Shown: piece after piece, positions 1,758 through 30,382 of the stretch
Numbering within the stretch: the stretch's first letter is position 1
Layout of the letters: the number at the start of each line of letters is the position of its first letter
Source: Lachnospiraceae bacterium
GTDB lineage: Bacteria > Bacillota > Clostridia > Lachnospirales > Lachnospiraceae
Direction: 5' to 3'
NCBI GenBank assembly: GCA_017540265.1
Contig: JAFYBJ010000064.1
Coordinates: 1 to 32,927, forward strand
Length of the DNA stretch: 32,927 nt
Program-made: the position numbers and the translations under genes
The notes under the pieces: model-generated
The model's database searches: none
Told to the model about the DNA's origin: nothing
The model's input: the letters and a program-made list of their open reading frames with translations, nothing else

Positions 1758-2411
1758 ATGAAAACATTAGAAATCGATGATTTAAAGCGCGAAGCGAAGA
1801 TCTTTTGTGAGTTTATGTGCAAGGAAAAACATAGCAGTTTGATAGGTGTGACCGATGGAAAAGCTGTCGGCACATATGTTGAGCATCGTTTTCAAGAGTA
1901 TTTGAGAGAGAATTATAAACTTGAAATTGGTAGTAGTGCAAAGGGAATTGATCTGCCTGGGGACAATATTCAAACTGATATCAAGGTTACAAGTATAGTT
2001 CAGCCGCAGAGTAGTTGTCCGTTTAAAAATGCACGGCAGAAGATATTTGGTTTGGGATATAATTTGCTTGTCTTTGTTTATGATAAGAAGGATACTGCTA
2101 ATAGTTGTACCCTTGACTTCAAATACTGTACTTTCATAGATAAATCACGAACAGCTGATTTTACTATTACAAAGCGGTTACGTGAAATGGTTGATGATGG
2201 AGCAAACAAAGAGGATATCATCGGATTCTTGATTGATAAAAATGTACCAGGTGATGAGATAGTTTACAGTGACCTTGCGGATGAAATACTAGAGCATAAA
2301 CCCGAGCAGGGATATTTGACTATAAGTAATGCCCTACAGTGGAGATTACAGTATGCGAGAGTAATAGCACTTGATAATAAAGTAAATGGGGTTCTTAATT
2401 ATGAATGGTAA
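1758..2411 (+). CDS. Type II restriction endonuclease, PD-(D/E)XK fold
   Basis: A 217-aa protein predicted to cut DNA at the site protected by the methyltransferase encoded next. The core PD-(D/E)XK signature is visible: E42 in a VEHRF helix, acidic D65 and D69 in GIDLPGDNIQ, then D74-I-K76 at the end of a strand, followed by QSSCPFKNARQKIFGLGYN and a hydrophobic strand LLVFVYD. This arrangement is typical of short Type II endonucleases. The start ATG 1758 has a good AGGAGAGGTGG site. The 3' end overlaps the methyltransferase start by 11 bp, and base composition is AT-rich like its neighbours. I cannot name the recognition site. The fold is well supported; the exact family is not. Confidence 0.75.
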   Translation: MKTLEIDDLKREAKIFCEFMCKEKHSSLIGVTDGKAVGTYVEHRFQEYLRENYKLEIGSSAKGIDLPGDNIQTDIKVTSIVQPQSSCPFKNARQKIFGLGYNLLVFVYDKKDTANSCTLDFKYCTFIDKSRTADFTITKRLREMVDDGANKEDIIGFLIDKNVPGDEIVYSDLADEILEHKPEQGYLTISNALQWRLQYARVIALDNKVNGVLNYEW

Positions 2412-3912
2412 TGAACTGAAGAAGGAGTTCGGTGATTATCAAACCCCTGAGGATTTTGCTTGTGCAGTTTGTGAATATTTGTGTAACGATCTTAATATCC
2501 AACCTAAGTATATAATTGAACCTACGGCAGGAATTGGTAATTTTATAAAGGCTTCTTTAAAAACCTTTGTTGATAGTGAATCAATTGTTGGAATTGAGGT
2601 TAATGAAGAATACTGCGATATATGTAGATCATCTATTCCATCTAACAAGGTAAAGATAGAGTGCAGTAATTTTTTTGGGTATGATTTATCTGATTTCGCA
2701 AAGTATGGGGATCAAACACTTGTTGTTGGAAATCCGCCATGGGCGACTAATTCCGAACTGAATTTTAACTTGCCTGAAAAGGTAAATTTTAAAAGATTGT
2801 CCGGTACAGATGCTATCACCGGTGCTAGTAATTTTGATATTTGTGAGTACATCATTTTGCAGCTTATTGATGCGTTTAAAGATACTAACGCTATAATTGC
2901 AATGCTCTGCAAAACATCAGTTGCGCGGAATGTTTTACAAGAATTAAATAGAACTAAGACAAAAGCAGAATATGTCAAAATGGTAAACTTTAATTCTGCT
3001 AAAGTTTTTGGCATTAGCGCATCTGCATGTCTGTTAGTAGTAAAGCTATCAGATATAATTGATAACGCTAGTGTTTGTGAGGTTTCTGAATTCGAGAATC
3101 CCACAGTGATTGTAAGCAAGATCAAGTGTGAGAATGGTGTTCTTTCATCTGCAATTGACGGAGTAAAAAACCTTGAAGGAAATTGTCAATGCGAGTGGAG
3201 GCAAGGCGTTAAGCATGATTGTTCAAGCATTATGGAATTGGAAATGCTTGGAGGAGGGAAGTATAAAAACAAAAAGAAAGAAGAAGTTGAACTAGAGGAA
3301 ACGCTTGTTTTTCCATTGATGAAAAGCAGTAGTTTTAAGCAGCCAATCATATGCGAAGGCTTCAAAAAATATGTAATAGTCACACAAAAAAAAGCCAGAG
3401 AAGACACTTCTTATATCGAACAATTAGCACCGCATACATGGCACTATCTAATTTCAAACAAAGAGTTATTTGACGGAAGAAAAAGCTCAATATATAATGG
3501 CGCCCCCGCGTTTAGCATGTTTGGAGTGGGTGACTATTCGTATGCAAAATACAAAGTAGGCATTTCGGGATTTTATAAGAAACCGTTGTTCACGCTGCTG
3601 TATAATGCTGATGAGATAGATCATCCAATTATGTTAGATGATACAACGTATTTTCTTTCATTCGACACATATGATGAAGCATATGTGTGTATGGTTTTGT
3701 TAAATTGTGAATCGGTTCAAGATTTTTTATTTTCAATCTCTTTCAAGGATGCAAAAAGACCATATACAAAAAAAGTATTACAGAGATTGGATTTAAAAAA
3801 GTGTTTTAAAGAGATTACAATAGACGAACTTAAGGAGACGGAAAAACGATTAGAATTAAAGCCATATATCACAGAGAGCATGTATGTAGAGCTTAAAGAA
3901 CACGTTAGTTAA
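2401..3912 (+). CDS. N6-adenine DNA methyltransferase of Type II R-M system
   Basis: A 503-aa DNA methyltransferase. Near the N-terminus, GDYQTPEDFA is followed by the AdoMet-binding motif I, PTAGIGNF (residues 41-48), an acidic residue ending the next strand (GIEVNEEY) and the catalytic motif IV NPPW (111-114), which marks amino-methyltransferases acting on adenine N6. The order I, IV, then a long C-terminal half that would be the target-recognition region fits the gamma class. ATG 2401 is preferred over ATG 2386 because GGGG lies 8 bases upstream and the homologous-looking N-terminus starts here. The start is inside the endonuclease gene, so translation is coupled. The protein would protect host DNA; specificity cannot be read from sequence alone. 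Confidence 0.85.
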   Translation: MNGNELKKEFGDYQTPEDFACAVCEYLCNDLNIQPKYIIEPTAGIGNFIKASLKTFVDSESIVGIEVNEEYCDICRSSIPSNKVKIECSNFFGYDLSDFAKYGDQTLVVGNPPWATNSELNFNLPEKVNFKRLSGTDAITGASNFDICEYIILQLIDAFKDTNAIIAMLCKTSVARNVLQELNRTKTKAEYVKMVNFNSAKVFGISASACLLVVKLSDIIDNASVCEVSEFENPTVIVSKIKCENGVLSSAIDGVKNLEGNCQCEWRQGVKHDCSSIMELEMLGGGKYKNKKKEEVELEETLVFPLMKSSSFKQPIICEGFKKYVIVTQKKAREDTSYIEQLAPHTWHYLISNKELFDGRKSSIYNGAPAFSMFGVGDYSYAKYKVGISGFYKKPLFTLLYNADEIDHPIMLDDTTYFLSFDTYDEAYVCMVLLNCESVQDFLFSISFKDAKRPYTKKVLQRLDLKKCFKEITIDELKETEKRLELKPYITESMYVELKEHVS

Positions 3913-6447: not shown

Positions 6448-7202
6448 TGCAGCATTTTTTTGTTGATCCCTCTGCGATAGAAGGCAGTCTTATCCGCATT
6501 AGCGGAGATGATGTTAATCATATTAAAAACGTGCTGCGGATGAAGCCCGGAGAAGAAGTGAGCATAAGCACCGGTATGGAAGACAGGGAATACCGGGCGG
6601 AGATCACTGAGCTAAAGGATGATGAGATAATCTGCACCCTTCGTTTTATAAAGGAAAAGGGTGTGGAGCTTCCCGTGCGTCTTACGCTTTTCCAGGGACT
6701 CCCCAAAGCAGATAAAATGGATCTGATAATACAAAAGGCTGTAGAGTTGGGCGTATCCCGCGTAGTTCCGGTGCGGACGGACAGAGCGGTGGTAAAGCTT
6801 GATGATAAGAAGGCTGCAGCCAAAAGAGAACGCTGGCAGAAGATAGCGGAAGCTGCGGCAAAGCAGAGCGGCAGGGCCTATATCCCGGAGGTGTCGTTAC
6901 CTTCAGATATCAGGGAGGCACTTAAAGAAGCAGCAGCTATGGATGCAGCATCAATCCCTTACGAACTGGCGGAAGGTATGGAAGATACAAAAGCCTTTGT
7001 AAAAAAAGTGAGGGAACTTGCGGATAAAAAAGAAGGTACCGCAGGGATATTTATCGGACCGGAAGGCGGTTTTACAAAAGAGGAGATAGAGCTTGCCGTT
7101 TCAAACGGCATAAAGCCCGTATCCCTCGGCCGCAGGATACTTAGAACGGAAACAGCGGGACTTATGCTGCTCTCCGTGCTGATGTACGAACTGGAGCTTT
7201 GA
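6447..7202 (+). CDS. rsmE: 16S rRNA (uracil1498-N3)-methyltransferase (RsmE)
   Basis: A 251-aa SPOUT-class methyltransferase acting on U1498 of 16S rRNA. The PUA-like N-terminus starts MQHFFVDPSAIEGSLIRISG with HIKNVLRMKPGEE; the trefoil-knot AdoMet site is GIFIGPEGGFTKEE then LGRRILRTETAGL near the C-terminus. The start at ATG 6447 overlaps the prmA stop; a longer in-frame start at 6417 lies inside prmA and adds no conserved sequence. The 3' end reaches within three bases of the next start, consistent with one transcript from prmA through nifS. Confidence 0.93.
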   Translation: MQHFFVDPSAIEGSLIRISGDDVNHIKNVLRMKPGEEVSISTGMEDREYRAEITELKDDEIICTLRFIKEKGVELPVRLTLFQGLPKADKMDLIIQKAVELGVSRVVPVRTDRAVVKLDDKKAAAKRERWQKIAEAAAKQSGRAYIPEVSLPSDIREALKEAAAMDAASIPYELAEGMEDTKAFVKKVRELADKKEGTAGIFIGPEGGFTKEEIELAVSNGIKPVSLGRRILRTETAGLMLLSVLMYELEL

Positions 7203-7204
7203 GA

Positions 7205-8371
7205 ATGGAGATATATCTGGACAATTCGGCGACTACACGCGTCTTTCCGGAAGCGGTGTCGCTTATGGATAAAATATATACCGAAGATTACGGCAATCCT
7301 TCAAGCGCGCATTTAAAAGGCGTAGAGGCTGAAAAATATATTAAGGGCGCAAAGGAGAGTCTTGCGAAGATACTCAGGGCAAAGCCCGGTGAGATATATT
7401 TTACTTCAGGAGGCACGGAATCCGATAATCTCGCGCTTATTGGAACAGTGCATGCAAAGCGGCGCATGGGCAGCCACCTGATCACCACGGCGATCGAACA
7501 TCCCGCAGTGCTCCGTACCATGGAATATCTTGAAAGGGAGGAAGGCTGTACGGTCACATATCTTCCCGTGGATAAGGGCGGTGTTGTTGATACCGGGATG
7601 CTTAAGAAAGCGGTAAACGATGATACCATCCTTGTTTCCGTGATGCATACCAATAATGAGATCGGCTCCGTTCAGCCGCTTGAGGAGATAGGCGCTTTTC
7701 TTAAGGAAAAATTTCCGAAGGTCACTTTTCATACGGATGCCGTTCAGGGATTTGGGAAAGCAAAGATATATCCGCATAAGGCCGGTATAGATCTTATGAG
7801 CGTCAGCTCCCATAAGATACACGGACCCAAGGGTATGGGATTTCTTTATGTTGCCGAAGGGACGAAGCTTGCGCCGGTGATATTTGGCGGAGGGCAGCAG
7901 GGCGGAATGCGCTCCGGTACGGAAAATGTGCCGGGGATAGCTGCAATGGCTCTTGCAGCCGGAAAGCTTTACGGAGATATTGACGTTGAAAGAGAGAGGC
8001 TCTTTGAACTGAAAAGTTTTTTTGCTGAGGAGCTGCTTAAGCTTCCGGGTGTATATTTAAACGGGCCGTCCCATACGGATACAAAATGTGCTGCACCGCA
8101 TATACTGAGTGCATCCTTTGAAGGCGTAAGGTCTGAGGTGCTGCTGCATGCGCTTGAAGATAAGGGGATATACGTATCCTCCGGGAGCGCCTGCTCCACA
8201 CATAAGAATACCCTTTCGGATACACTGGGCGCCATAGCGCTTAAGCCTGAGCTCATGGACTGCACGCTGCGTTTTTCGTTTTCGGTATTTACAAAGAAAG
8301 AAGAGCTTGAAGAAACCTTAAAAGCTCTTGCGGAAATGCTTCCTGAACTCAGAAAATATACGAGGCATTAG
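7205..8371 (+). CDS. Cysteine desulfurase, NifS/IscS family
   Basis: A 388-aa PLP enzyme that takes sulfur from cysteine as a persulfide. Visible: IYLDNSATTRVFPEA at the start, GGTESDN, H99 in AIEHP, HTNNEIGSVQP, D178 in HTDAVQG, the PLP lysine K204 in SSHKIHGPKG, and the catalytic C330 in SSGSACSTHKN. GGAG lies 8-9 bases before ATG 7205; the frame can be read from TTG 7199 but that start overlaps rsmE. thiI lies about 2.9 kb downstream on the same strand, so this is probably the dedicated sulfur donor for ThiI, as NifZ is in Bacillus subtilis. Two signalling genes now separate the pair. Partner assignment is inference. Confidence 0.92.
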   Translation: MEIYLDNSATTRVFPEAVSLMDKIYTEDYGNPSSAHLKGVEAEKYIKGAKESLAKILRAKPGEIYFTSGGTESDNLALIGTVHAKRRMGSHLITTAIEHPAVLRTMEYLEREEGCTVTYLPVDKGGVVDTGMLKKAVNDDTILVSVMHTNNEIGSVQPLEEIGAFLKEKFPKVTFHTDAVQGFGKAKIYPHKAGIDLMSVSSHKIHGPKGMGFLYVAEGTKLAPVIFGGGQQGGMRSGTENVPGIAAMALAAGKLYGDIDVERERLFELKSFFAEELLKLPGVYLNGPSHTDTKCAAPHILSASFEGVRSEVLLHALEDKGIYVSSGSACSTHKNTLSDTLGAIALKPELMDCTLRFSFSVFTKKEELEETLKALAEMLPELRKYTRH

Positions 8372-8374
8372 CTT

Positions 8375-10501
8375 ATGCTTCCTTTTAAGACAACAGTAAC
8401 CATATTCGTTGTGGAATTCCTCTGCACTGTCCTTTTGCAGGTCATGTATGTCATGAGCTCGCTGGGGGTGGAGAGGGCTTTTTACGTTTCGCTTGGACTT
8501 ATACCCGTATTTATCGTTTTCCTTCTTTCATACAAGATAAACAGGCCCGGAGTGGTGATCAGGTGCCTTATGTATTCGGCACTTGCCACTTATTATTACA
8601 TATGTACTGCGTCACATACCGAATCCATGCTGGTTTTCATGCTGCTTGCCATGGGCGTGGAGATGGTGCTTTTCTTAGATCAGTTCATAGTAGGTGAGTA
8701 TTTTCTTGTCACCTCCGTGCTCCTTATTCTTATAGGGATATTCAGGATGAATGTTTTGAGCGAAGATCTGGACATGTCCCAGTATGTGGAATATATCGCC
8801 ATGTATGCTTTCGCCGGAGTTACCGCCGTATTCATCACTTACAGTATAGGACGTTATAAAAAGCAGATGGAGGAAAAGGCTGAGCTTGCAAGGGATGCCC
8901 TTGAAGCAAAATCCAATTTCCTTGCCAATATGAGCCATGAGATCAGAACCCCCATGAATGCCATATACGGAATGGCGGAGCTTATGGAAGACATGGAAAC
9001 GGGTGTAAAGGAAAAGGAATATGTGGCAGTCATTAAAAGATCCTCTGAAAGCCTTTTGTCCATAATCAATGAGATACTTGATTTTTCAAAGATCGATTCG
9101 GGAAAGCTTGAGATAATCGAAGAGCCTTACAGTTTCAGGGAAATGCTGCAGGATGTTGTAACGATAATAGAATTCAGGATGAGGGACAAGAATCTGTCTT
9201 TCATACTTGATATGCCGGATAATCTGCCGGGAAGGCTTTTCGGTGATTCAAACCGTATAAGACAGATACTTTTAAACCTTCTCACCAATGCCGTTAAATT
9301 CACAAACAAGGGAAGCGTCACTTTAAGGATAAGATGGGAAGAGGACAGGAGCTATTCAGATCCCAGAGGTATACTTATCATAAGCGTTGCCGATACCGGA
9401 ATAGGCATATCCGAGGAAAACATGCAGAAGCTCTTTACGGCTTTCGGGCAGGTAAATACAAGAAAGAACAGGAATGTGGAAGGCACAGGACTGGGACTTG
9501 CCATTTCAAAGAGCCTTTCCGAACAGATGGGCGGAAGCATAGAAGTGGAATCCAAAGAAGGCGTGGGATCTGAATTCAGGGTAAGGATCCCCCAGAAGGT
9601 GGATGATCCAAAGCCTGAGGCCCTTAATATTAACAGGCTTGAGAATATCATACCGGGCGGCCGTTATCAGGCGGATTTCGTGGCGCCTAAGGCAAAGGTT
9701 CTCATAGTGGATGATAATAAAGTAAACCTTCAGGTTGCCGCGGAGCTCCTTAAGCTTTTCGGTATAAATGCTTATCTGGCCGAAAGCGGGAACGAGGCCA
9801 TAGATCTGATAGCAAGGCATCTTATCACCTACGATATCGTATTTATGGATCACATGATGCCCTTTATGGATGGCGCGGAGGCGACAAAGCGCATAAGGGA
9901 GATGGATAGCAGCTATGCAAAGAATGTGCCTGTGGTGGCGCTCACGGCAAATGCCATAAAGGGTGTTGAAAAACAGCTGCTTGACTCAGGGATGAGTGAT
10001 TATATCTCCAAGCCCGTAAAGGTGGAGCAGTTAGGCCAGGTGTTAAGAAAATGGCTGCCCTCATCAAAGATATTCCCGGCAGGTACCACCATTGAAGAGG
10101 TGGAGAGGCAGGAGGCGCTCATTCCCTGGGACAAGCTTCCGCCGGAGGAGCTTTTGTCCAGGCTTGAGGGCATAGATACCGCCACAGGTGTTTTAAATTG
10201 TGCGGGAAACGTGCAGGGCTATATAGAACTCCTTAAAACATATGCATCTTCAAATCTCATAAATCTCTTAAATGATTTTTATGAAAAAGAGGATATAGAG
10301 AATTACGGTGTGACGGCTCATTCCATAAAAGGCGCCAGCCAGTCGGTGGGAGCCCTTGATGTTGCTGATACGGCCTATGCCCTGGAGCGGGCAGCGAAGA
10401 GGGGCGATATCACATATATATGGGATAATCACGAGGAACTTGTCACGCAGTACGGCAGTATACTGGAAATGCTGAAGAATATTTTCTATCCCGGAAAATG
10501 A
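8375..10501 (+). CDS. Membrane hybrid histidine kinase with REC and HPt domains
   Basis: A 708-aa sensor kinase. Residues 1-160 contain about six hydrophobic segments with almost no extracytoplasmic loops, so no classical sensor domain is seen. A coiled linker leads to the HisKA domain with H188 in NFLANMSHEIRTPMNAIYGM, then HATPase boxes (LLTNAVKFTNKG, ADTGIGIS, GTGLGLAIS), a receiver domain (about 440-555; D446/D447, acceptor D492 in MDHMMPFMDG, K546), and a C-terminal HPt domain with H649 in TAHSIKGASQSVGA. All four phosphorelay stations are present. It begins three bases after the desulfurase stop and precedes a LytTR regulator. The signal sensed is unknown. Confidence 0.92.
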   Translation: MLPFKTTVTIFVVEFLCTVLLQVMYVMSSLGVERAFYVSLGLIPVFIVFLLSYKINRPGVVIRCLMYSALATYYYICTASHTESMLVFMLLAMGVEMVLFLDQFIVGEYFLVTSVLLILIGIFRMNVLSEDLDMSQYVEYIAMYAFAGVTAVFITYSIGRYKKQMEEKAELARDALEAKSNFLANMSHEIRTPMNAIYGMAELMEDMETGVKEKEYVAVIKRSSESLLSIINEILDFSKIDSGKLEIIEEPYSFREMLQDVVTIIEFRMRDKNLSFILDMPDNLPGRLFGDSNRIRQILLNLLTNAVKFTNKGSVTLRIRWEEDRSYSDPRGILIISVADTGIGISEENMQKLFTAFGQVNTRKNRNVEGTGLGLAISKSLSEQMGGSIEVESKEGVGSEFRVRIPQKVDDPKPEALNINRLENIIPGGRYQADFVAPKAKVLIVDDNKVNLQVAAELLKLFGINAYLAESGNEAIDLIARHLITYDIVFMDHMMPFMDGAEATKRIREMDSSYAKNVPVVALTANAIKGVEKQLLDSGMSDYISKPVKVEQLGQVLRKWLPSSKIFPAGTTIEEVERQEALIPWDKLPPEELLSRLEGIDTATGVLNCAGNVQGYIELLKTYASSNLINLLNDFYEKEDIENYGVTAHSIKGASQSVGALDVADTAYALERAAKRGDITYIWDNHEELVTQYGSILEMLKNIFYPGK

Positions 10502-17001: not shown

Positions 17002-17331
17002 ATGACGACAGAGATCGAAAGAGAGCTTTACCAGCTTGTGGAAGCCGTGAAGCATTCTAAAAACTGCAGGGAATATTACAGATGGAGAAAAGTGCTGGAA
17101 AGCGATCCGGAGCTTTTTGAGAGGGTAAATGTTTTCAGGAAGACAGCCTATGAGCTGCAGATTTCCGAGGATGACGGTACCCTTGAGGATCGTATAGAAA
17201 AATATATGGCTGAAAATGCCGAGCTTACGGAGGAACCCAGGGTCAGGGCTTTTCTTGATGCGGAGCTTGACCTGTGCAGGATGCTTCAGACCATAACGGA
17301 CAAAGTGGTCCGCGGGATAGATTTTAAATGA
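17002..17331 (+). CDS. YlbF/YmcA family protein
   Basis: A 109-aa all-helical protein of the YlbF/YmcA (DUF964) group: REYYRWRKVLESDPELFERV followed by FRKTAYELQ, and a C-terminal EPRVRAFLDAELDLCRMLQT helix. In Bacillus subtilis YlbF, YmcA and YaaT form a complex that works with RNase Y in mRNA maturation, competence and sporulation. Here it directly follows RNase J, so a role as an RNase partner is plausible. ATG 17002 is used; the frame is open upstream into the RNase J gene without conserved sequence. Its stop overlaps the next start as ATGA. Confidence 0.85.
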   Translation: MTTEIERELYQLVEAVKHSKNCREYYRWRKVLESDPELFERVNVFRKTAYELQISEDDGTLEDRIEKYMAENAELTEEPRVRAFLDAELDLCRMLQTITDKVVRGIDFK

Positions 17332-17816
17332 GCAGGAATAAGATACTTTTTCTTATAGCGAAGACAGTATTCGGCATCATTGTTCTGATGCTCATATTTT
17401 CGTTCGTTTATTCCGCATGCAGGAGGGCTTTTGATTTCGGCTTCCGGATCTTTGCGGAGGAACCCGTATCACCGGCGCCCGGGCATACGATATCGGTGGC
17501 GATAGTAGACGGAAAGACCGTGATGGAGACGGCGGAGATACTCGAAAGTAAAGGACTTATAAGGGATTCGAAGCTGTTTTATTTTGAAGAGCTTTTTTCG
17601 GATTATCACGGCAGGCTTAAGCCCGGAATATATGAGTTTTCAACGGCAATGACACCATTTGAGATGATGGATATAATGGCATCATCTTCATCTTCTTCGG
17701 AAAGCGGTGATGAGGAAGAAATATCAGGCAATTCGGAGCCTGAAACGGGTGAGGATGAAGGAAGCGGGACGGAAGAAGATATCGAGGAGATCATAATAGA
17801 TCCGGGGGCTGAGTAG
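17328..17816 (+). CDS. Short MltG/YceG-like membrane protein without catalytic domain
   Basis: A 162-aa protein with one N-terminal transmembrane helix (about 9-29) and an extracellular LysM-like segment: TISVAIVDGKTVMETAEILE, then SKGLIRDSKLFYFEELF and LKPGIYEFSTAMTPFEMMDIM, which is the N-terminal part of endolytic transglycosylase MltG. The transglycosylase domain with its catalytic glutamate is missing; the protein ends in an acidic Ser/Glu-rich tail (SSSSSSESGDEEE onward). It starts by a 4-bp overlap with ylbF. It lies where yrrL (mltG) is found before yrrM in Bacillus, so it is probably a reduced descendant. It may bind glycan or a division partner; this is inference. Confidence 0.75.
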   Translation: MSRNKILFLIAKTVFGIIVLMLIFSFVYSACRRAFDFGFRIFAEEPVSPAPGHTISVAIVDGKTVMETAEILESKGLIRDSKLFYFEELFSDYHGRLKPGIYEFSTAMTPFEMMDIMASSSSSSESGDEEEISGNSEPETGEDEGSGTEEDIEEIIIDPGAE

Positions 17817-21741: not shown

Positions 21742-22287
21742 ATGAAAAGGAAATTAATGACGGCTTTTTTTGCTGCAGCACTCATGGTTGCATCATTTAC
21801 AGCCTGCGGAAATGAAGAAGAGGTTCATCCGGAGGTAACGGAAGAAGAGCTTGCGGCAGCTGCCGAAAAACAGGCGAATAAAGAAAAGGATCCCGTGGAG
21901 TCCATGTCTGAAGAAGCAAAGGAAACAGACCCTGTCATGAAAAAGCTCAATGAGATGGCGGGATGGTATACCGGAACGTCTACAAGCGGGGAGACTATAT
22001 TCTTTGCAGAAAACGGTGATGAAGCCGTGCTGGCTGTAGGCGATACGGTTTATGACGGAGCGGAGGCCGTATCTGAGGAAAAGACGGCAGCAGGCGAGAC
22101 GGTGATCACTGTAACGGATGCAGAAAGCGGGGAAGCTTTCACATGGAATCTTACTTATGATGTACAAGGTGATTATTATCAGTTTGATCTCGGAACAGAT
22201 TACGGAACGGCTGATCTCATCTGGTGCGAAAAGAATGAAATGTTTGAAAGCTTAAAGCGCATCGAACTGGCTGCAGAAGCAAAATAA
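21742..22287 (+). CDS. Small secreted lipoprotein
   Basis: A 181-aa protein with a lipoprotein signal peptide: positively charged MKRK, hydrophobic TAFFAAALMVAS, and the lipobox FTAC with the lipidated cysteine at 22. An acidic, probably flexible linker (about 24-65) leads to a beta-rich domain (WYTGTSTSGETIFFAENGDE, then VLAVGDTVYDGAEAV and FTWNLTYDVQGDYYQFDLG). GGGAGGA precedes ATG 21742. The export and lipid anchor are clear; the domain family is not recognised. Its position before the MMPL permease and surface protein suggests it may be an extracytoplasmic partner of that pair. Confidence 0.85.
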   Translation: MKRKLMTAFFAAALMVASFTACGNEEEVHPEVTEEELAAAAEKQANKEKDPVESMSEEAKETDPVMKKLNEMAGWYTGTSTSGETIFFAENGDEAVLAVGDTVYDGAEAVSEEKTAAGETVITVTDAESGEAFTWNLTYDVQGDYYQFDLGTDYGTADLIWCEKNEMFESLKRIELAAEAK

Positions 22288-22295
22288 AAAGAAAA

Positions 22296-22342
22296 AAAGA
22301 ATGACTTTGGGGACGGGGGTTTTGGGCCCTCGTTCTTTCTTT
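22296..22342 (+). terminator. Hairpin between lipoprotein and MMPL genes (possible attenuator)
   Basis: AAAGAATGA (22296-22304) pairs with TCGTTCTTT (22330-22338) with one G-U pair, and a T-rich stretch follows. The 25-nt loop is unusually G-rich (GGGGACGGGGG, GGGCCC). It sits 12 bases before the MMPL ribosome binding site ends, so it may lower transcription into MMPL or simply end the lipoprotein message. Confidence 0.5.
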
Positions 22343-22354
22343 AAGGAGGTATAT

Positions 22355-24865
22355 ATGGCCGCTAAAGAGGAAATCGAAACGACGGATACGGCTAAGGAAA
22401 AAAAGGGGAACGCATCAAGCCCGGTGATAAAGGTCGCTACCTTTATCGTAGACAGGCGTAATCTTTTCTTCCTGCTTTTTATCATCGGCGCGATAATCAG
22501 CCTGGTGACAAAGAACTGGGTAAAGGTTGAGAATTCCCTGGCTGCGTATCTACCGGATACGGCTGAGACTTCGAGGGGCCTTGATCTTATGGAAGAGCAG
22601 TTTGTCACCTATGGCAGCGCAAAGGTCATGGTAATGAACATTCCATATTCCGAAGCGGAAAGGATAGCAGACAGGATAGAAAAAGATCCGAGGGTATCCA
22701 TGCTTGGCTTTGACGGGGAAAAAGAACATTATAATAATTTTTCCGCTCTTTACGATATTACCTTCATTTATCCGAGTGATGATGACAGGGCCCTTGAAGC
22801 CCTTGAAGATATAGAAGAGGGACTTTCCGGATATGATCTTTATGTATCTACTTCCCTTGGAGATGCGCAGGCCGAGCAGATAGAGGCGGAGATGCAGGTG
22901 GTAAGCCTGATAGTTGCTGTCATAGTTCTTACGGTGCTTATATTTACGTCCCAGACTTATGCCGAGGTGCCGGTACTTATCATTACCTTCCTTGCATCCG
23001 CGATACTCTCGGCAGGAACGAATTTCCTTCTGGGGACCATATCCTTTGTCTCAAATTCCGTGACGATAGTGCTTCAGCTGGCGCTGTCCGTGGATTATGC
23101 CGTGATCTTCTGTAACCGGTATAAGGAAGAGCATAAGACTCTGGATATAAGAGAGGCGGACATAATAGCACTTAGCAAGGCGATACCGGAGATCTTTTCA
23201 AGCTGCTTAACCACGGTTGGCGGACTTGTAGCTATGATGTTCATGCAGTATGGCGTGGGCCGGGATATGGCAATATGCCTTATAAAGGCGATTTCTTTCT
23301 CGATCTTAAGCGTGTTCTTACTGATGCCCGGACTTATCATGATCTTCGGGCCACTTATGGATAAGACAAAGCACAGGAATTTCGTGCCCAGGATAAACTT
23401 CGTGGGAAGGTTTGACTATGCCACGAGACACGTGGTCCCGTTACTCTTTCTTCTGGTGGTCCTTGCGGCAATGTTCCTGCAGAACAACTGCCCTTATGTT
23501 TATGGTTATTCCAAGTTAGTCACACCCATAAAAAATGATACCCAGATAGCTGATGAGATGATAGAGGAAAGCTTCGGGGATTCAAATTTTGTGGCGCTTA
23601 TGGTTCCTGCGGGAAATTATGAAAAGGAAGGCAGGATGATAGATGCGCTTTTAGCCTGTCCGGAAGTAAAGAGCGTGACCGGACTTGCAAGCACGGAAGC
23701 AATGGACGGATATATGCTGACGGATAAGCTTACCGCAAGGCAGCTTTCGGAGCTGCTCGATCTCGACTATGAGGTGGCGGAGCTTCTGTATACCGCTTAT
23801 GCCGTAAATGATGAAAACTATGCAAAGCTGATAAACGGCTTAAGCTCTTATTCAGTACCGCTTATAGATATGGTCATGTTTGCTTTTGAAGAGGTAAAGG
23901 AAGGATATGTAACGCTGGATGATGACCTCTACAATGATCTTAAGAGTGCAAACGATAAGATGCAGCTCGCAAAGGACCAGCTCCAGGGAGAGGATTACAG
24001 CAGGATGTTAGTATATTTAAATCTCCCTCAGGAAGGTGATGAGACCTTTGCTTTTCTTGACAGGATGCATGAGATAGGGGATGGATATTACGGTGAGGGA
24101 GAAACGATAATAGCCGGCGAGTCCACCAGCCAGTATGATCTTATGAAAACATTTAACCGCGATAATATCGTGGTTTCCGTGGGCTCAGTACTTATAGTAC
24201 TTGCCGTGCTTTTGTTTACTTTTATGAGCGCGGGCATGCCCGTCCTTCTCATTGCGGTAATACAGGGCGCGATATGGATGAACTTTGCTTTTCCTACGAT
24301 AATGGATACGAACATCTTCTTCTTAAGCGAGCTTATAGTAAGTTCCATTCAGATGGGTGCGAATATCGATTATGCCATTGTTATCTCCGGAAGATTCTTA
24401 GAGCTTAAAGACAGGATGCCAAGAAAAGAGGCTATAACGGAGACCTTAAATTTCGCATTCCCGACCATAGTTACCAGCGGTTCCATGATGACGCTTGCCG
24501 GGGTATTTATAGGACAGCTTTCTTCCGACGGTGCCATAAGCGGTGTGGGACAGTGCATTGGAAGAGGTACCATTATTTCAATTGTGCTGGTTATGTTCGT
24601 GCTTCCGCAGATCCTCCTTGTAGGAGAAAAGATAATAGACAAGACCAGCTTTAAGATGTCGGTGCCCATAAAGCTTGACAGGGGCTTCGGTCTTGTCCGT
24701 GTAGACGGAATGGTAAGAGGAAACATAAACGGAACCGTTATAGGCGAGATGAATGCCGTGGTAAGAGGTGAAGTCAATGCCCTGGTGACGCTTGGAAAAA
24801 TGGAGACCATAAGTGAGGAAGATGCTTTAAAAGAGCTTGCCGTAAAGGAGGGTGACGTACAATGA
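22355..24865 (+). CDS. MMPL/RND-family membrane transporter
   Basis: An 836-aa permease with the RND duplicated layout: one transmembrane helix (about 35-52), an extracytoplasmic domain, five helices (about 185-360), then the same again (helix near 390, large loop, helices about 620-760). The conserved intramembrane acidic motifs are present in both halves: LALSVDYAVIFCNRYKEE and QMGANIDYAIVISGRFLE. Proteins of this class export lipids or other hydrophobic molecules using the proton gradient. ATG 22355 follows AAGGAGGT; the longer frame from 22301 lies in a hairpin. The last 64 residues form a soluble tail with V-x-G repeats. It overlaps the next gene by 4 bp. The substrate is unknown. Confidence 0.9.
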   Translation: MAAKEEIETTDTAKEKKGNASSPVIKVATFIVDRRNLFFLLFIIGAIISLVTKNWVKVENSLAAYLPDTAETSRGLDLMEEQFVTYGSAKVMVMNIPYSEAERIADRIEKDPRVSMLGFDGEKEHYNNFSALYDITFIYPSDDDRALEALEDIEEGLSGYDLYVSTSLGDAQAEQIEAEMQVVSLIVAVIVLTVLIFTSQTYAEVPVLIITFLASAILSAGTNFLLGTISFVSNSVTIVLQLALSVDYAVIFCNRYKEEHKTLDIREADIIALSKAIPEIFSSCLTTVGGLVAMMFMQYGVGRDMAICLIKAISFSILSVFLLMPGLIMIFGPLMDKTKHRNFVPRINFVGRFDYATRHVVPLLFLLVVLAAMFLQNNCPYVYGYSKLVTPIKNDTQIADEMIEESFGDSNFVALMVPAGNYEKEGRMIDALLACPEVKSVTGLASTEAMDGYMLTDKLTARQLSELLDLDYEVAELLYTAYAVNDENYAKLINGLSSYSVPLIDMVMFAFEEVKEGYVTLDDDLYNDLKSANDKMQLAKDQLQGEDYSRMLVYLNLPQEGDETFAFLDRMHEIGDGYYGEGETIIAGESTSQYDLMKTFNRDNIVVSVGSVLIVLAVLLFTFMSAGMPVLLIAVIQGAIWMNFAFPTIMDTNIFFLSELIVSSIQMGANIDYAIVISGRFLELKDRMPRKEAITETLNFAFPTIVTSGSMMTLAGVFIGQLSSDGAISGVGQCIGRGTIISIVLVMFVLPQILLVGEKIIDKTSFKMSVPIKLDRGFGLVRVDGMVRGNINGTVIGEMNAVVRGEVNALVTLGKMETISEEDALKELAVKEGDVQ

Positions 24866-27800
24866 AGAAAAGAAAGTTATCCGTAAGAACTGCGGCATTT
24901 CTTATCGCTGTACTTATCTTAAATACAGCCGGAATAAGGGATCTCCATGCTGCTCCTGTTCCGGAGGAAAAAGAAGAGTCATCTGTATCGGAAAATGCAT
25001 CTGAGATCATAAAGGAAACCATAGAGATAGAAAGCGCAGATGATCTTGTGGCGCTTTCAGAGCGGTGCAGGCTTGATTCGGGATCGGAAGGTCTCTATGT
25101 GATACTTAAGAATGACGTAAACCTTTCGGGATCGGTTTTTAAGTCCATACCGTTTTTTGAAGGGCATTTTAACGGAGACGGCCATACCATATCGGGATAT
25201 ACCTGGGGCGGGGACGGATATGTGACAGGTTTCTTCAGGTATACGGGAAAGAACGCCGTGGTGGAGGATCTTAAGCTTTCCGGATTTATACGTGCAAATG
25301 AGGGAAAGAATGTGACCGGAGGCATCGCCGGTATAAACAGGGGTAAGATAAAAAACTGCAGCATAAGCGGCAGCGTCATGGGAAAGAATATCACCGGAGG
25401 TATCGCAGGCATAAATGAAAATACCGGCGATATCACGGGCTGCAGCTCGGAGGCCGGGGTGACGGGATATTATTACACGGGCGGAATATGCGGAAAGAAT
25501 TACGGTTTTATATCCGGCTGTTCAAATAAGGGCAGCATAAATGATACAAAGGAATGGGTTACCGAGGATGACCGCCTGGATAATGAGAAACTAAGTGATA
25601 TAAACGACATTGAGGATCTGAAGAACGTACGTATACAGAGCGGGGTGGATACCGGAGGAATAGCCGGTTATTCGAAGGGAATAATAATATCTTCGGTAAA
25701 CAGCGGTGTTACGGGTTATCCTCATACAGGCTACAATGTGGGCGGCATAGCCGGACGCCAGGCAGGGCTTATATCCGGGTGCATTAACAACGGAAAGATC
25801 TACGGCAGAAAGGATATAGGCGGCATAGCGGGACAGATGGAGCCTTTTGTAGAGTTAAACGAGGTGGAGTCGCTTACAACATCCGTTGACAGTCTTCATG
25901 ATATGATCGAGAACCTCTTAAGTGATCTGCGCAGTACAAATACCGCGATAAACGGTGATTTCGAGGAATTAAGGGATCTTGCGGATGAAAGCCTGGATAC
26001 AGGGGCCGCATTAAGGAGCGGGGTTAAGAGTTATATCAATACAAACACCGATACCATAAATGAACTGGGCGACAGGACAGGGGAAGTGACGGATATGCTC
26101 CCTGTCGTTACGGACAATATGAGCGATGCCGGAAGACATATCGCAGATATGAACAGCTCTCTTGCCGAAGTAAGGAAGGCGATCGACAGCGTAGACAGCT
26201 ATAGCGGCGCAGATAAAAAGAAGATTGAAGTTCAAAAGAAAGCCCTGGATGAAGCAGAGGCTGTTGTTAATGAACAGGCTGCAGTGATCGCCGCCTGCAC
26301 GGAGGAAATAAAAGCTGTCCGCGCAAAGTATTCCGAAGGGACAGGATTTGCGCTTTATTCCTTAGAGGATATGAAGACCATAGCGGCAGATATAAAGATG
26401 ATGTCGGACGCCCTGAAGCTCGAGATCTCCGCAGTTTCCGGGATAGCTCATTGTGTGGCTGTACTTGAAGAGATATATGCTAAAAATGCAAAGAGCGGAG
26501 TGCAGGATGCGGGAGCTTCCTTTAAGCAGGCGGGAAAGGATGCCTCGGATACACTGGATTATTTTAATAATGCGCAGGCGGGCGTTTCGGACATCGTAAC
26601 CTACCTGAATGCCCAGGACGATCTTTTACTTGTGGGGATAGGAAGGAATATAGAGGACAATACAGGAAAACTAAACACCCATATGAACAGCATGCTGAAT
26701 ATAACGGAAAAGCTTTTGGAACACTCCGCAGATTATCCGCAAAAGGTGGGCGACGACTTAAGAGCCATAAACGATCAGATAAATCATATCTACTCGCTTG
26801 TGGATGATACTTTCAGCAATGTGGAAGACAGTATAGATAATACTTTTAGCGACGTATCAGAATATGCCCTGCTCACGGCAAGACAGGGAAAGATCACCAA
26901 ATGCACGAACAACGGTATTGTACGCGGGGATATCAATACCGGAGGCATCACGGGAGCCATGGCGATAGACGAAGATGATCCGGAAGGAAATGCAGCCGGC
27001 TCAGTAAATACGTCACTCGGAGGAAAATATACAACACAGAATGTATTGCAGTATTCGGTAAACAATGGATCTGTGCATTCAAAGAATGATGGCGCCGGAG
27101 GCATAGTGGGCTTTATGCGTCACGGTGTTGTCGACGGATGCAGATCCTTCGGACCTGTAGGCAGCAGCGACGGAAGCTATGTGGGCGGTATAGCAGGCCA
27201 GTCTCTTTCTGTAATACTCTCTTCTTATGCCATGAATATCCTCGAGGGCAAAGAGGATGTGGGCGGTATAGCAGGCTATGGTACCAGCATATCGGGGTGC
27301 TATGCCATTCCGGATATCGTCAGACATGAAGGCAGTGCGGGAGCCATAGCGGGACAGATAAAAATAGACGGCGATACGGAGGAACTTCATCTTGCAGATG
27401 TGAAAGGAAATCTTTTTGTGAGCGAAAAGTTCTGCGGGATAGACGGGATAAGCTATAAAGGCTCTGCGGAAGCTGTGGGATATGATGAGCTTACGGCTTT
27501 AAGAAACTGCCCCGAAGAGTTTAAGAAATTAAAGATAAATTATTATCTTGACGAGGATGAGGATGATGATGAGAATGACCTGATATTCCTGGGAAGCGAG
27601 GATGTGGCATACGGAGATGACATGAGCGTTCTTGATTATCCGCCCGTTCCTTCAAAGAAAGGGTATTTTGGCAAGTGGCCGGATACGCAGGGAATGAAGG
27701 CAGAGGGCAATATGATGGTCACCGCAGTATATGTTAAGAATGTGGAGACTCTTGCCAGCGCCGAAAAGAACAGCGCTTCGGGAAACAAGCCCCTTGTGCT

Positions 27801-28203
27801 TGCGGATGGTATTTTTGACGATAATGCGGGAATACGGGTGGAAAAAACGGAAGAACCGGCGTTTTATGCGGATATGCCTTATACGGATCATGTGATATAT
27901 AAAGTGGATACGGAAGGGCTTAGCGTATCTGAAGATGAGCCGGTTATCTTAAGATTTTACGATCCTTACGGAGAAAGGGCAGAGCTCTTTGCCTGGAACG
28001 GGAATTCCTGGGATAAGCTGGATGCTCCGGTCAGAGGTTCATATCTCCAGACAGAGATGAAAGAAGGTGTGAGCATATACTGCGTGGCGCTTCCCTTCGA
28101 TATGCGTATCGCCTACGCAGGAGCAGCGGCTGTCCTTATCTTTATGGCTGCAGCCGTCATCGTGATCAAAAAGATAAAAAGGCGAAAAAAGAATAATACA
28201 TAA
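24862..28203 (+). CDS. Large membrane-anchored GLUG-repeat protein with helical insert
   Basis: A 1113-aa exported protein. Signal peptide: MKKRKLSVRT plus hydrophobic AAFLIAVLILNTAG, cleaved after about residue 30. GLUG-type repeats (TGGIAGINRGKIKNC, TGGICGKNYGFISGC, VGGIAGRQAGLISGC) occupy about 150-325 and return at about 690-830 (TGGITGAM, GGIVGFMRHGVVDGC, VGGIAGQS). Between them, about 330-665 is predicted helical coiled-coil without a membrane segment. An acidic stretch (about 895-907) and further beta regions follow, then a C-terminal transmembrane helix (1083-1102) and a KKIKRRKKNN tail, so the bulk faces outside. The ATGA overlap with the MMPL gene implies coupled synthesis and a shared complex. 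No catalytic motif is seen. Confidence 0.88.
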   Translation: MKKRKLSVRTAAFLIAVLILNTAGIRDLHAAPVPEEKEESSVSENASEIIKETIEIESADDLVALSERCRLDSGSEGLYVILKNDVNLSGSVFKSIPFFEGHFNGDGHTISGYTWGGDGYVTGFFRYTGKNAVVEDLKLSGFIRANEGKNVTGGIAGINRGKIKNCSISGSVMGKNITGGIAGINENTGDITGCSSEAGVTGYYYTGGICGKNYGFISGCSNKGSINDTKEWVTEDDRLDNEKLSDINDIEDLKNVRIQSGVDTGGIAGYSKGIIISSVNSGVTGYPHTGYNVGGIAGRQAGLISGCINNGKIYGRKDIGGIAGQMEPFVELNEVESLTTSVDSLHDMIENLLSDLRSTNTAINGDFEELRDLADESLDTGAALRSGVKSYINTNTDTINELGDRTGEVTDMLPVVTDNMSDAGRHIADMNSSLAEVRKAIDSVDSYSGADKKKIEVQKKALDEAEAVVNEQAAVIAACTEEIKAVRAKYSEGTGFALYSLEDMKTIAADIKMMSDALKLEISAVSGIAHCVAVLEEIYAKNAKSGVQDAGASFKQAGKDASDTLDYFNNAQAGVSDIVTYLNAQDDLLLVGIGRNIEDNTGKLNTHMNSMLNITEKLLEHSADYPQKVGDDLRAINDQINHIYSLVDDTFSNVEDSIDNTFSDVSEYALLTARQGKITKCTNNGIVRGDINTGGITGAMAIDEDDPEGNAAGSVNTSLGGKYTTQNVLQYSVNNGSVHSKNDGAGGIVGFMRHGVVDGCRSFGPVGSSDGSYVGGIAGQSLSVILSSYAMNILEGKEDVGGIAGYGTSISGCYAIPDIVRHEGSAGAIAGQIKIDGDTEELHLADVKGNLFVSEKFCGIDGISYKGSAEAVGYDELTALRNCPEEFKKLKINYYLDEDEDDDENDLIFLGSEDVAYGDDMSVLDYPPVPSKKGYFGKWPDTQGMKAEGNMMVTAVYVKNVETLASAEKNSASGNKPLVLADGIFDDNAGIRVEKTEEPAFYADMPYTDHVIYKVDTEGLSVSEDEPVILRFYDPYGERAELFAWNGNSWDKLDAPVRGSYLQTEMKEGVSIYCVALPFDMRIAYAGAAAVLIFMAAAVIVIKKIKRRKKNNT

Positions 28204-28220: not shown

Positions 28221-28229
28221 TGCTATAAT
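28221..28229 (+). promoter_or_regulatory. Extended -10 promoter immediately before ispE
   Basis: TGCTATAAT is a perfect extended -10. A transcript starting about 7 bases after it would begin only 3-5 bases before ATG 28240. No good -35 is apparent. Confidence 0.55.
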
Positions 28230-28239
28230 GTATTTTATT

Positions 28240-29175
28240 ATGTACAAAGAAGTAAAAGTAAAAGCCTGTGCAAAGATAAATCTGACCCTTGATGTAAGGG
28301 AAAAGAGAGAGGACGGATATCACGAGATATCCTCTGTTATGCAGAGCATAAAACTTCATGATGACCTGGAAATCAGTGCAGCCAAAAACGGCATAAGTCT
28401 TAGTGTGATCAGTGAAGGGGGAGAGGCATCACAGGCGCTGGGGCATTCCCTGGTGCCTGCGGATGCCGGAAATATCGCCTGGAAGGCGGCAGATCTGTTC
28501 TTTAAAAAAGTTTCCCCTGAAGAAAAGGGAGTTCATATCAGACTTACAAAACGTATACCCGCGGCAGCAGGCCTCGCAGGCGGGAGCACTGATGCGGCAG
28601 CTGTTTTAAAAGGTCTTAATGAGCTTTACGGTACCGGACTTGTCCTTCAAGAGCTTGAGGCCCTTGGGGCGGAGCTTGGTTCGGATGTTCCTTTTTGTTT
28701 AAAAGGCGGGACCGTGTTATGTACCGGCCGTGGAGAAATACTTGAAGAGCTGCCTGATGCAGGCGGTATCGCCATGGTGCTCGCAAAACCTGCAGTTTCG
28801 GTTTCGACGGGCGCTGCCTATGGTGAGCTTGACAGTCTTGAAAAGGAACATAAGCTGTTTCATCCGGATACGGAAGCTCTTGTTAAGGCTTTAAAGGGCG
28901 GGAAGCGGATGGATGCTGAAACGCTTGCTCCTTATCTTGGAAATTCTTTTGAAAAAGCTGTAGCCGGAAAACACGGCATTATCGGAGAGATAAAGGATGC
29001 TCTCATGCAGTGCGGCGCTCATGCAGCCCTTATGAGCGGGAGCGGTCCTTCGGTCTTTGGCATATTTCCTGATCTTACGGCGGCCGGGGAGGCACTTGGG
29101 GAGATAAGAGGACGTTTTAAGGATGTGTATTTTTGTGTAACGGAATTTGAAGAGGGAGACAGGAAGCGTAGCTAA
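28240..29175 (+). CDS. ispE: 4-diphosphocytidyl-2-C-methyl-D-erythritol kinase (IspE)
   Basis: A 311-aa GHMP kinase of the non-mevalonate isoprenoid pathway. It starts KACAKINLTLDVREKREDGY with the conserved lysine 12 and DGYHE; the ATP-binding GHMP motif is PAAAGLAGGSTDAAAVL (107-123), then GSDVPFCLKGGT, and a C-terminal LMSGSGPSVFG loop. ATG 28228 is also in frame but lies in the -10 box TATAAT, so ATG 28240 is preferred. There is no ribosome binding site before either, and the promoter spacing suggests a leaderless message. It is followed after 18 bp by a gntR gene with a strong ribosome binding site, a pairing common in clostridia. Confidence 0.94.
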   Translation: MYKEVKVKACAKINLTLDVREKREDGYHEISSVMQSIKLHDDLEISAAKNGISLSVISEGGEASQALGHSLVPADAGNIAWKAADLFFKKVSPEEKGVHIRLTKRIPAAAGLAGGSTDAAAVLKGLNELYGTGLVLQELEALGAELGSDVPFCLKGGTVLCTGRGEILEELPDAGGIAMVLAKPAVSVSTGAAYGELDSLEKEHKLFHPDTEALVKALKGGKRMDAETLAPYLGNSFEKAVAGKHGIIGEIKDALMQCGAHAALMSGSGPSVFGIFPDLTAAGEALGEIRGRFKDVYFCVTEFEEGDRKRS

Positions 29176-29193
29176 CCGTAAAGGGGGGGAGAT

Positions 29194-29874
29194 ATGTGGA
29201 AAATAGAGGAAGATCTTAAGCTTGAGGCAGATGAGTTTACTCCGCTAAGGGATGTGGTGTGCAACGCCATAAGAAGGGCTATCCTTACCGGACAGATGGA
29301 ACCCGGAACAAGGCTTTTGGAGGTTCATCTGGCAGATACCCTGGGTGTCAGCCGTACGCCGGTCCGCGAAGCCATAAGAAAGCTTGAGCAGGAAGGGCTT
29401 GTGATCATAAGACCCAGGCGCGGTGCTGAGGTGGCAAGGATCACTGCTCCGCAGATGAGGGATATGATGGAAGTACGCATCATGATGGATGTGCTTGCTG
29501 CCGAGCTTGCCGCAGGCCGCGCGGATGCCACCGCTATTGAAGAGATAAAAGCTGTCGAAGAACAGTTCGAAGAGGAAATAAGAAACGGCGATCTGCACAG
29601 TATAGTGGAAGCTGATACGAGATTTCATGCTGCGATCGCTGCCACAGGCGGGAACAGAAAGCTTATTGAGATAAACAGGGAAATGGAAGACCAGGTGAAC
29701 CGTTACCGTTATGAGACGGATAAGATCGTGGAGACAAGGCCTGATCTTGTGAGGGAACATACGGCGGTCATAAAGGCCATAGAAGCAGGCGATCCTGAAG
29801 CAGCGGGGATTGCTGCAAGGGCGCATATAACAAGGCAGGTGGATGTTTTCCTTAAAAAATTTCCCGAGGAATGA
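29194..29874 (+). CDS. GntR-family regulator, FCD (FadR-type) domain
   Basis: A 226-aa transcription factor. The N-terminal winged helix (about 15-82) shows VVCNAIRRAILTGQMEPGTR followed by LGVSRTPVREAIRKLEQEGL and RPRRGAEV. The C-terminal FCD domain (about 90-215) has the usual D-x-x-FH pattern (EADTRFHAAIAATGGN), EHTAVIKAIEAGD and AARAHI, which provide the aspartate and histidines that bind a metal and a carboxylate ligand. GGGGGGGAG lies before ATG 29194. The ligand and targets are unknown; the gene may be co-transcribed with ispE. Confidence 0.93.
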   Translation: MWKIEEDLKLEADEFTPLRDVVCNAIRRAILTGQMEPGTRLLEVHLADTLGVSRTPVREAIRKLEQEGLVIIRPRRGAEVARITAPQMRDMMEVRIMMDVLAAELAAGRADATAIEEIKAVEEQFEEEIRNGDLHSIVEADTRFHAAIAATGGNRKLIEINREMEDQVNRYRYETDKIVETRPDLVREHTAVIKAIEAGDPEAAGIAARAHITRQVDVFLKKFPEE

Positions 29875-29911
29875 TAAAAGATTAAGAACACGCAGACGGA
29901 GGAAGCCGGTT

Positions 29912-30382
29912 TTGACGAAGGATGTACTCATATCATTAAAGGGACTGCAATACAGAGGTCCTGATGGAGAGCAGGGTGATGCTGAAATGATAGTCCCCGG
30001 TTCTTACTACGAAAAGGACGGAAAGAAGATCCTCATATATGATGAGCCCGCAGGAGACGGAGATGGGAATACACATACAATGGTAAAGATAATGCCCGAT
30101 TCCGTTGAGATAAGCAGGAAGGGATTTACAAACAGCAGCATGAACTTCTATAAAGGGCAGAAGAATATGTGCAGCTATAATATGCCTTTCGGAAGTCTCA
30201 TGATGGGGATAGATACGGAGGATATAAAGATCGATACCCCCGATGATGATATGATGAGGATAGAGATAGACTACAGGATGGATATAAACTATTCCTTCTA
30301 TGCCGACTGTAAGATGGTGATGGAAGTCAGGTCGAAGGCAGGCGCCGGAGTAATGTTTAAAAATCCTATTTCAGCGGTTTAA
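29912..30382 (+). CDS. DUF1934 (YwiB-like) beta-barrel protein
   Basis: A 156-aa calycin-like protein of the DUF1934 family: VLISLKGLQYRGPDGEQGDA, GSYYEKDGKKILIYDEP, MVKIMPDSVEISRKG and a C-terminal LMMGIDTEDIKID, MRIEIDYRMDINYSFYADCK region. The start TTG 29912 is chosen because GGAGGA lies 8 bases upstream; the frame is open from 29843 inside gntR, but those residues are basic and unrelated to the family. Function is unknown; homologues are small cytoplasmic proteins. Its 3' end overlaps the minus-strand membrane protein gene by 17 bp, so the two transcripts converge. Confidence 0.82.
   Translation: MTKDVLISLKGLQYRGPDGEQGDAEMIVPGSYYEKDGKKILIYDEPAGDGDGNTHTMVKIMPDSVEISRKGFTNSSMNFYKGQKNMCSYNMPFGSLMMGIDTEDIKIDTPDDDMMRIEIDYRMDINYSFYADCKMVMEVRSKAGAGVMFKNPISAV

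Follow-up and report, generated by a model that had tools for sequence, protein, structure and literature searches.

A putative transporter of the MMPL family and a large surface protein with GLUG repeats are encoded by a conserved two-gene unit in Lachnospiraceae bacterium (GenBank assembly GCA_017540265.1), the draft genome of which measures 1.9 Mb with an estimated completeness of 73%. The unit was recognised in contig JAFYBJ010000064.1, positions 1 to 32,927 of the forward strand; this whole stretch of 32,927 nucleotides is called the window, and positions are counted from its first letter. We think it reasonably probable that the two products work as one machine, in which the MMPL protein is a proton-driven exporter of hydrophobic or amphiphilic molecules and the GLUG protein its dedicated, wall-reaching partner. 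The first-pass annotation, made from the sequence alone, had described a row of three genes for a lipoprotein, an RND-type pump and the GLUG protein, the last two coupled by ATGA. All three open reading frames lie where it had put them (21742-22287, 22301-24865 and 24862-28203), and the ATGA is present in the sequence. The two genes of the unit are arranged as follows.

22355..24865, + strand: MMPL/RND transporter gene, 836 amino acids, with a match to PF03176
24862..28203, + strand: gene for a membrane-anchored protein with a predicted GLUG beta-solenoid and helical arm, 1113 amino acids, with a match to PF07581
24862..24865, + strand: ATGA, overlap of the MMPL stop and the GLUG start, read from the sequence

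The two genes occur together across the family. The sample comprised 250 family genomes of 249 genera, that of the window included. A search with the GLUG protein (E <= 1e-10) matched 44 of them, 37 strongly (best E 1.1e-29 or lower) and 7 through generic matches (7.7e-17 or higher). Pair-type MMPLs were defined in this sample by a profile match of more than 550 bits, which 38 of the 250 genomes exceed, with other MMPLs at 496 bits or less; when whole proteins are scored, other MMPLs reach up to 605 bits and pair-type MMPLs 991 or more. Both genes are present in 37 genomes, the MMPL gene alone in 1, the GLUG gene alone in 0 and neither in 212 (Fisher test 1.6e-43, a value that ignores relatedness, the genomes not being independent). 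In the single MMPL-only genome (G016) the gene is interrupted by a stop and ends 62 bases from the contig end. The pair is common in the family (37/250 genomes), and other families of the class have it too. The pair-type MMPLs sampled group in one clade (33/33, support 0.80).

Linkage was followed from both genes. A scan of the class found an MMPL match in 45 of 391 genomes and a scan of the phylum in 7 of 398 (E <= 1e-105); outside the family the class gave 40 matches, and we examined the loci of 36 of these together with 4 of the 5 from the phylum. Among these 40 loci, 38 have room downstream of the MMPL gene, and there the GLUG gene is next on the same strand (34 loci) or fused to it (4); the remaining two, L134 and L144, end at a contig edge. 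A split reading frame was seen in L135, L146, L149 and L169. Two further family genomes (L098 and L100) have the GLUG gene downstream of the MMPL gene. Within the genus, 26 of 35 genomes carry a pair-type MMPL, one of them in fragments, and the GLUG gene is linked to it in 20/20 loci examined. Altogether, the GLUG gene lies next downstream or is fused in 60/60 MMPL-first loci with room.

Starting from the GLUG gene, we compared 42 regions, two from named metagenome-assembled genomes and 40 from the family search (all 36 other strong genomes and one generic), and an MMPL gene lies upstream in 40 of them. The exceptions are L069 and L073. L069 carries a second GLUG protein of 918 amino acids (6941-9697) with no MMPL on that region, in a genome where the pair is present as well; L073 is a generic GLUG match (E 7.7e-17). 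One genome (G205) holds two broken copies of the pair (L067 and L068), with both genes in pieces and their order kept. The two genes could overlap in 30 of 35 pairs of relatives and are separated by 1-13 bases in the other five, a count based on whichever GLUG start lies closest to the MMPL stop, a choice favouring overlap. Conserved linkage had been set beforehand as one test of the proposed system, and it was upheld by the co-occurrence (37/1/0/212), the 60/60 linkage and the four genomes with fused genes. No paper on the MMPL-GLUG pair was found in the open-access literature, subscription papers being outside that coverage. A viral collection contained no relatives by the GLUG profile and one by the MMPL profile. 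A viral contig (L074) carries an MMPL of the pair kind and a divergent TetR-like gene beside phage-like genes, and is possibly the host flank of a provirus.

The MMPL and GLUG parts are joined in one reading frame of 1912-2003 residues in four genomes belonging to a single genus (L130-L133). There the MMPL part stops just past its last membrane helix and is followed by a signal-peptide-like stretch and then by the mature GLUG part. The linker is short, basic, Ala-rich and hydrophobic and ends in (V/A)RA, resembling a signal peptide. In the fifth genome of the genus (L134) the locus is cut by the contig end; a relative from the same family (L135) is unfused. Given the signal-peptide-like stretch between the parts, the fused GLUG part should end up outside and be made one to one with the transporter, whether the linker is cut or kept as an additional membrane helix. 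The four fusions are indirect evidence for contact between the MMPL and GLUG proteins.

The anatomy of the GLUG protein was examined in 69 long sequences, including that of the window, and in an AlphaFold model built from three sequences only. Its parts in the window are listed below.

24862..24954, + strand: putative signal peptide, about residues 1-31, assigned by eye; the fusions keep a signal-peptide-like stretch there
25012..25845, + strand: predicted first solenoid half, residues 51-328, from model strands and invariant GGI.G rungs
25846..26850, + strand: predicted helical insert, residues 329-663 (335 amino acids), from helical periodicity and model helices at 335-658
26851..27501, + strand: predicted second solenoid half, residues 664-880, from model strands at 677-827 and invariant rungs
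28105..28194, + strand: predicted C-terminal membrane helix with basic tail, residues 1082-1111, from a model helix and a hydrophobic segment in relatives

The protein matches PF07581 with 34.7 bits against a curated cutoff of 20.5, in four stretches, the best at residues 202-227. The insert between the solenoid halves ranges from 158 to 837 residues across the set (median 350; 335 in the window). Its hydrophobic periodicity of 101 degrees per residue is that of helices and is missing from the solenoid parts, and none of the invariant columns of 36 aligned GLUG proteins falls inside it. A C-terminal hydrophobic helix exceeds the threshold in 65 of the 69 proteins. The model is consistent with this layout: the first solenoid half has block values of the predicted local distance difference test (pLDDT) of 60-83 in residues 161-230 and 71-85 in 261-330, lower elsewhere, the second half 84-90 in 681-700 and 50-87 in 731-830, and the insert 38-74 in 411-580 and 24-45 at both of its ends. 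By its sequence, the GLUG protein is a predicted beta-solenoid split by a variable helical insert. The first-pass description of GLUG repeats on both sides of a helical insert of roughly 335 residues, followed by a C-terminal anchor, is supported by the Pfam match, by the periodicity in 69 sequences together with the absence of invariant insert columns and the low-confidence model, and by the 65/69 count of anchor helices.

The MMPL protein is likewise the RND-type pump that had been claimed, scoring 100.5 bits against PF03176 with a curated Pfam cutoff of 20.5; its score against the NCBIfam model HAE3, 107.3 bits, is under that model's cutoff of 351.9. Among solved structures it has weak sequence matches to Dispatched, HpnN and MmpL3. 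Two named relatives were found, both Lachnospiraceae metagenome-assembled genomes, and their MMPL proteins are about 73% identical. The open reading frame opens at 22301, which gives 854 amino acids up to 24865. We place the true start at ATG 22355, not at 22301, because a Shine-Dalgarno sequence sits there, and the predicted protein then has 836 amino acids; the alignments of two relatives' MMPL proteins begin close to this ATG. Features of the gene, in the numbering of the 836-residue protein, are:

22343..22349, + strand: Shine-Dalgarno sequence AAGGAGG of the MMPL gene, shortly 5' of ATG 22355
23093..23098, + strand: Asp-Tyr pair 1, residues 247-248, putative proton relay; D and Y in 76/76 pair-type MMPLs
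23681..23986, + strand: ECD2 segment of 102 residues, candidate docking site, of near-constant length in relatives
24368..24373, + strand: Asp-Tyr pair 2, residues 672-673, putative proton relay; D in 75/76 and Y in 76/76 pair-type MMPLs
24689..24799, + strand: C-terminal tail, presumably cytosolic, bearing a four-residue V-x-G repeat, from the motif count in relatives

The proton relay of RND transporters is formed by Asp-Tyr pairs in transmembrane helices 4 and 10, and we take the two pairs found here to be the sites of the MmpL3 relay. Both are also present in 18/18 other MMPLs. Transporters of this class have 12 transmembrane helices and two ectodomains; simple hydropathy gives nine helices in the MMPL of the window and 8-12 in the other MMPLs listed. 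The ECD2 segment measures 101-107 residues in 73/73 pair-type MMPLs measured, and at about 102 residues it is a candidate docking site for the GLUG protein; this length is not unique to the pair, because an MMPL without a found partner (L076) has 100 residues there. The V-x-G motif of the tail occurs in 52/72 unfused pair-type MMPLs and in 0/18 other MMPLs. The tail is somewhat like a very short bactofilin (Bactofilin match E 0.041, under the cutoff), and no such match was obtained for the tails of two relatives' MMPLs.

In the mechanism we propose, the MMPL protein would sit in the cytoplasmic membrane, take up a hydrophobic or amphiphilic molecule and export it in the manner of an RND transporter driven by protons. 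Exported itself through Sec and anchored by its C-terminal helix, the GLUG protein would be the dedicated partner on the transporter's outer face, held there by the solenoid. From the solenoid the long helical arm would project into the thick wall and, probably within a trimer of pump and partner, guide or shield the cargo on its way through. The pairing is well shown and physical contact of the two proteins strongly suggested; contact is nonetheless inferred, as are the trimer, the role as conduit or shield and the kind of cargo. That the GLUG protein may supply a helical arm in trans is suggested by analogy with the MmpL coiled-coil tube.

Machines of known types offer partial parallels. The AcrAB-TolC type, too, joins an RND pump to an anchored protein whose beta domain is split by an inserted alpha part, and HlyD-type adaptors have an alpha hairpin within a split beta domain. 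The GLUG protein differs from them in giving no HlyD, lipoyl or barrel match up to E 1 in Pfam and NCBIfam. The hosts are taken as monoderm from their inferred taxonomy, and no outer-membrane channel is therefore expected. An MmpS adaptor consists of one transmembrane helix and an immunoglobulin-like domain; unlike MmpS4/5, the GLUG partner has 1113 residues, and it gave no MmpS match in the same two libraries. For MmpL5, PMC12501195 describes a 196-residue insertion in periplasmic domain 2 for which a coiled-coil tube within a trimeric pump is predicted, with genetic support, and PMC12183618 reports that removal of the coil stops transport by MmpL4, MmpL5 and MmpL10. The shared trait is an MMPL transporter extended beyond the membrane by a long helical part (PMC12501195, PMC12183618), a likeness extended by the four MMPL relatives with 555-745 residues at the ECD2 site that are treated below. 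Here, however, the helical part belongs to a separate protein, where it lies inside a split GLUG solenoid with an anchor of its own, and the pair-type MMPL carries no coil insertion, having the segment of about 102 residues at ECD2 (101-107, 73/73). The pair may work like the MmpL tube or like the adaptor of a tripartite pump, but it belongs to neither family: matches to HlyD and MmpS are absent, and the MMPL contains no long coil of its own. An adaptor-like reach across the wall is plausible, with the mycobacterial MmpL coiled coils (PMC12501195, PMC12183618) as functional precedent.

Long helical parts also accompany other MMPLs of these bacteria. A second MMPL clade (support 0.985) has a different secreted helical partner, the coil partner, at loci L077-L080, L085-L087 and L090-L094; no partner was found for one member, L088. 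The coil partner has a conserved beta domain (VDET.YVNLDYYG), a long helical part and a second short beta part. Of the 40 coil-partner genes in the 250 genomes, 36 have an MMPL match on their own strand no more than 1.5 kb away, and two of the 36 stand upstream of it; of the remainder, three have no MMPL match listed on their contig and one (G185) is 77 kb away. With the MMPL-GLUG pair these loci share an MMPL and an adjoining secreted protein of the plan beta, long helix, short beta. They differ in the beta domain, in the lack of a GLUG match in the coil partners scanned, in a C-terminal segment that by eye looks amphipathic with no clear membrane helix, and in the ECD2 segment, which has 24 residues in 13/13 MMPLs of the clade (12 with a partner, plus L088). 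Homology of the two partner types, for which hhalign gave 95.7% probability and E 1e-08, was not accepted: the alignment covers 80 coil columns at 6% identity, and coils match by composition, with matches to SMC, EzrA, Mce and others. Four further MMPLs (L081-L084, 1217-1381 residues) carry 555-745 residues at the ECD2 site itself, and no partner gene was recognised directly downstream of them. Together, the coil partners and these inserts suggest that a long helical part outside the membrane, provided in trans or in cis, is often used by MMPLs in these bacteria. We advance tentatively, with slightly less than even belief, a broader proposal: that monoderm bacteria have a counterpart of their own to the tripartite RND pump, an MMPL exporter driven by protons and fitted with an arm that reaches through the wall. 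There would be three interchangeable means of supplying the arm, namely a split GLUG solenoid or another split beta protein, both in trans, or a large ECD2 insert in cis, and the length of the GLUG arm (158-837 residues) would tune its reach through the wall.

A TetR-like gene lies no more than two genes upstream of the pair in 33 of 81 pair loci and is divergent in 28 of these; three such genes were confirmed by Pfam (TetR_N and TetR_C_8). A TetR-like neighbour in about four of ten loci suggests induction by a small molecule. Several points weigh against an exporter with a wall-reaching partner. In the other 48 of the 81 loci there is no TetR-like gene within two genes, and in the window none stands beside the pair, the 207-amino-acid upstream gene matching no family. 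No neighbour names a substrate: in the 42 clustered regions only the TetR-like gene recurs. The fivefold variation in insert length is not obviously compatible with a fixed conduit. If signal peptidase cuts the fused protein, the fusion proves coupled production, not contact. Four of the 69 GLUG proteins miss the threshold for the C-terminal helix, one of them narrowly and one in a split frame. The GLUG model is weak (mean pLDDT 51.4, predicted template modelling score 0.44) and has its lowest confidence at the two points where solenoid and insert meet; it does not tell whether the halves are joined or the insert is a hairpin. Foldseek returned no match to it at E <= 0.001. Nor is the profile alignment of the GLUG helical region with that of the coil partners good evidence of homology.

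A variable insert length would suit a different division of labour, in which a lipid or glycolipid is flipped or extracted by the MMPL protein and received at the wall by the GLUG protein, which would be an acceptor or site of assembly that builds a surface layer and not a conduit. The lipid movers HpnN and MmpL3 are among the solved structures to which the MMPL is weakly similar. However, the 42 clustered regions show no recurrent lipid or polysaccharide gene next to the pair, and the TetR-like genes at 33/81 pairs fit inducible efflux somewhat better; we hold an acceptor of this kind to be unlikely. Constant pairing and fusion could also be expected if the MMPL were a proton-driven motor or sensor that moves, releases or signals through the GLUG arm, with no small-molecule cargo, and the weak similarity to Dispatched, which releases lipid-linked proteins, points the same way. 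Yet the GLUG protein, with an apparent signal peptide and anchor of its own, should not need the MMPL for its export, and no signalling gene recurs nearby in the clustered regions, which leaves such a motor very improbable in our judgement. GLUG-repeat surface proteins, such as a region of the pneumococcal IgA1 protease, resemble the GLUG protein in this motif and in a weak fold match of the low-confidence model to 7uvl and 6xja (E 0.04-0.05). The GLUG protein might be an ordinary surface adhesin co-transcribed with a pump by chance. GLUG repeats are found in other proteins too, the match was generic only in 7 of the 44 matched genomes, and two of the 42 GLUG regions (L069 and L073) lack an MMPL; but the former is a second GLUG gene in a pair-bearing genome and the latter a generic match. 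In the proteins described here, unlike other GLUG surface proteins, the solenoid is split by a helical insert and the neighbour is constantly an MMPL, and the window protein matches no protease or adhesin family in Pfam or NCBIfam. Against the co-occurrence of 37/1/0/212, the 60/60 linkage and the fusion in four genomes, chance co-transcription is close to refuted, and we give it hardly any credence.

RND pumps are understood best where they act as machines spanning an outer membrane or a mycomembrane. Why bacteria with neither of these keep MMPL pumps, and how their cargo crosses a thick wall, are the questions to which the proposed exporter and its partner speak. The combination of an MMPL with a large helical-arm surface protein suggests a two-part machine moving something from the membrane through the thick wall. 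A constant and sometimes fused helical-arm partner provides a concrete two-gene object for these questions, and in one genus a one-gene object. The pair would also give a role to many proteins that are named only 'GLUG' or 'MMPL' in family libraries.

The third gene of the row fared differently from the other two.

21742..22287, + strand: lipoprotein gene, 181 amino acids, with a lipobox-like FTAC, judged to lie outside the MMPL-GLUG system

Of the set of three proposed in the first pass, the MMPL and GLUG genes stood and the lipoprotein did not. It matches no family above the cutoff in Pfam or NCBIfam, and tblastn found no relative at E <= 1e-3 in any of 103 regions, 101 of which contain a pair-type MMPL. 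Among 59 other genomes a homologue was present in one (G004), which is without a pair-type MMPL, and the lipoprotein was rejected as a third component on these grounds. A terminator scan between the lipoprotein and MMPL genes found none, the hairpin between them being insignificant (z -1.6). On the other side of the unit, an ispE-like gene lies directly 3' of the GLUG gene in the window (28228-30382) and in 6 of 20 genus loci, accompanied in 5 of those 6 by GntR-like and DUF1934 genes.

A defence system was considered for the pair and rejected: padloc gave no MMPL match at E <= 0.01, and the seven weak matches of the GLUG protein, in its coil region (best E 0.00077), are taken as chance. Elsewhere in the window, 17328-17816 encodes a short YceG/MltG-like protein whose match, under the cutoff, is confined to positions 1-66 of the 275 in the profile. 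A Type II restriction-modification pair occupies 1758-3912 (REase_II 253.9 bits, MTase_II 386.3 bits) and is accompanied by a small regulator-like open reading frame at 1184-1513.

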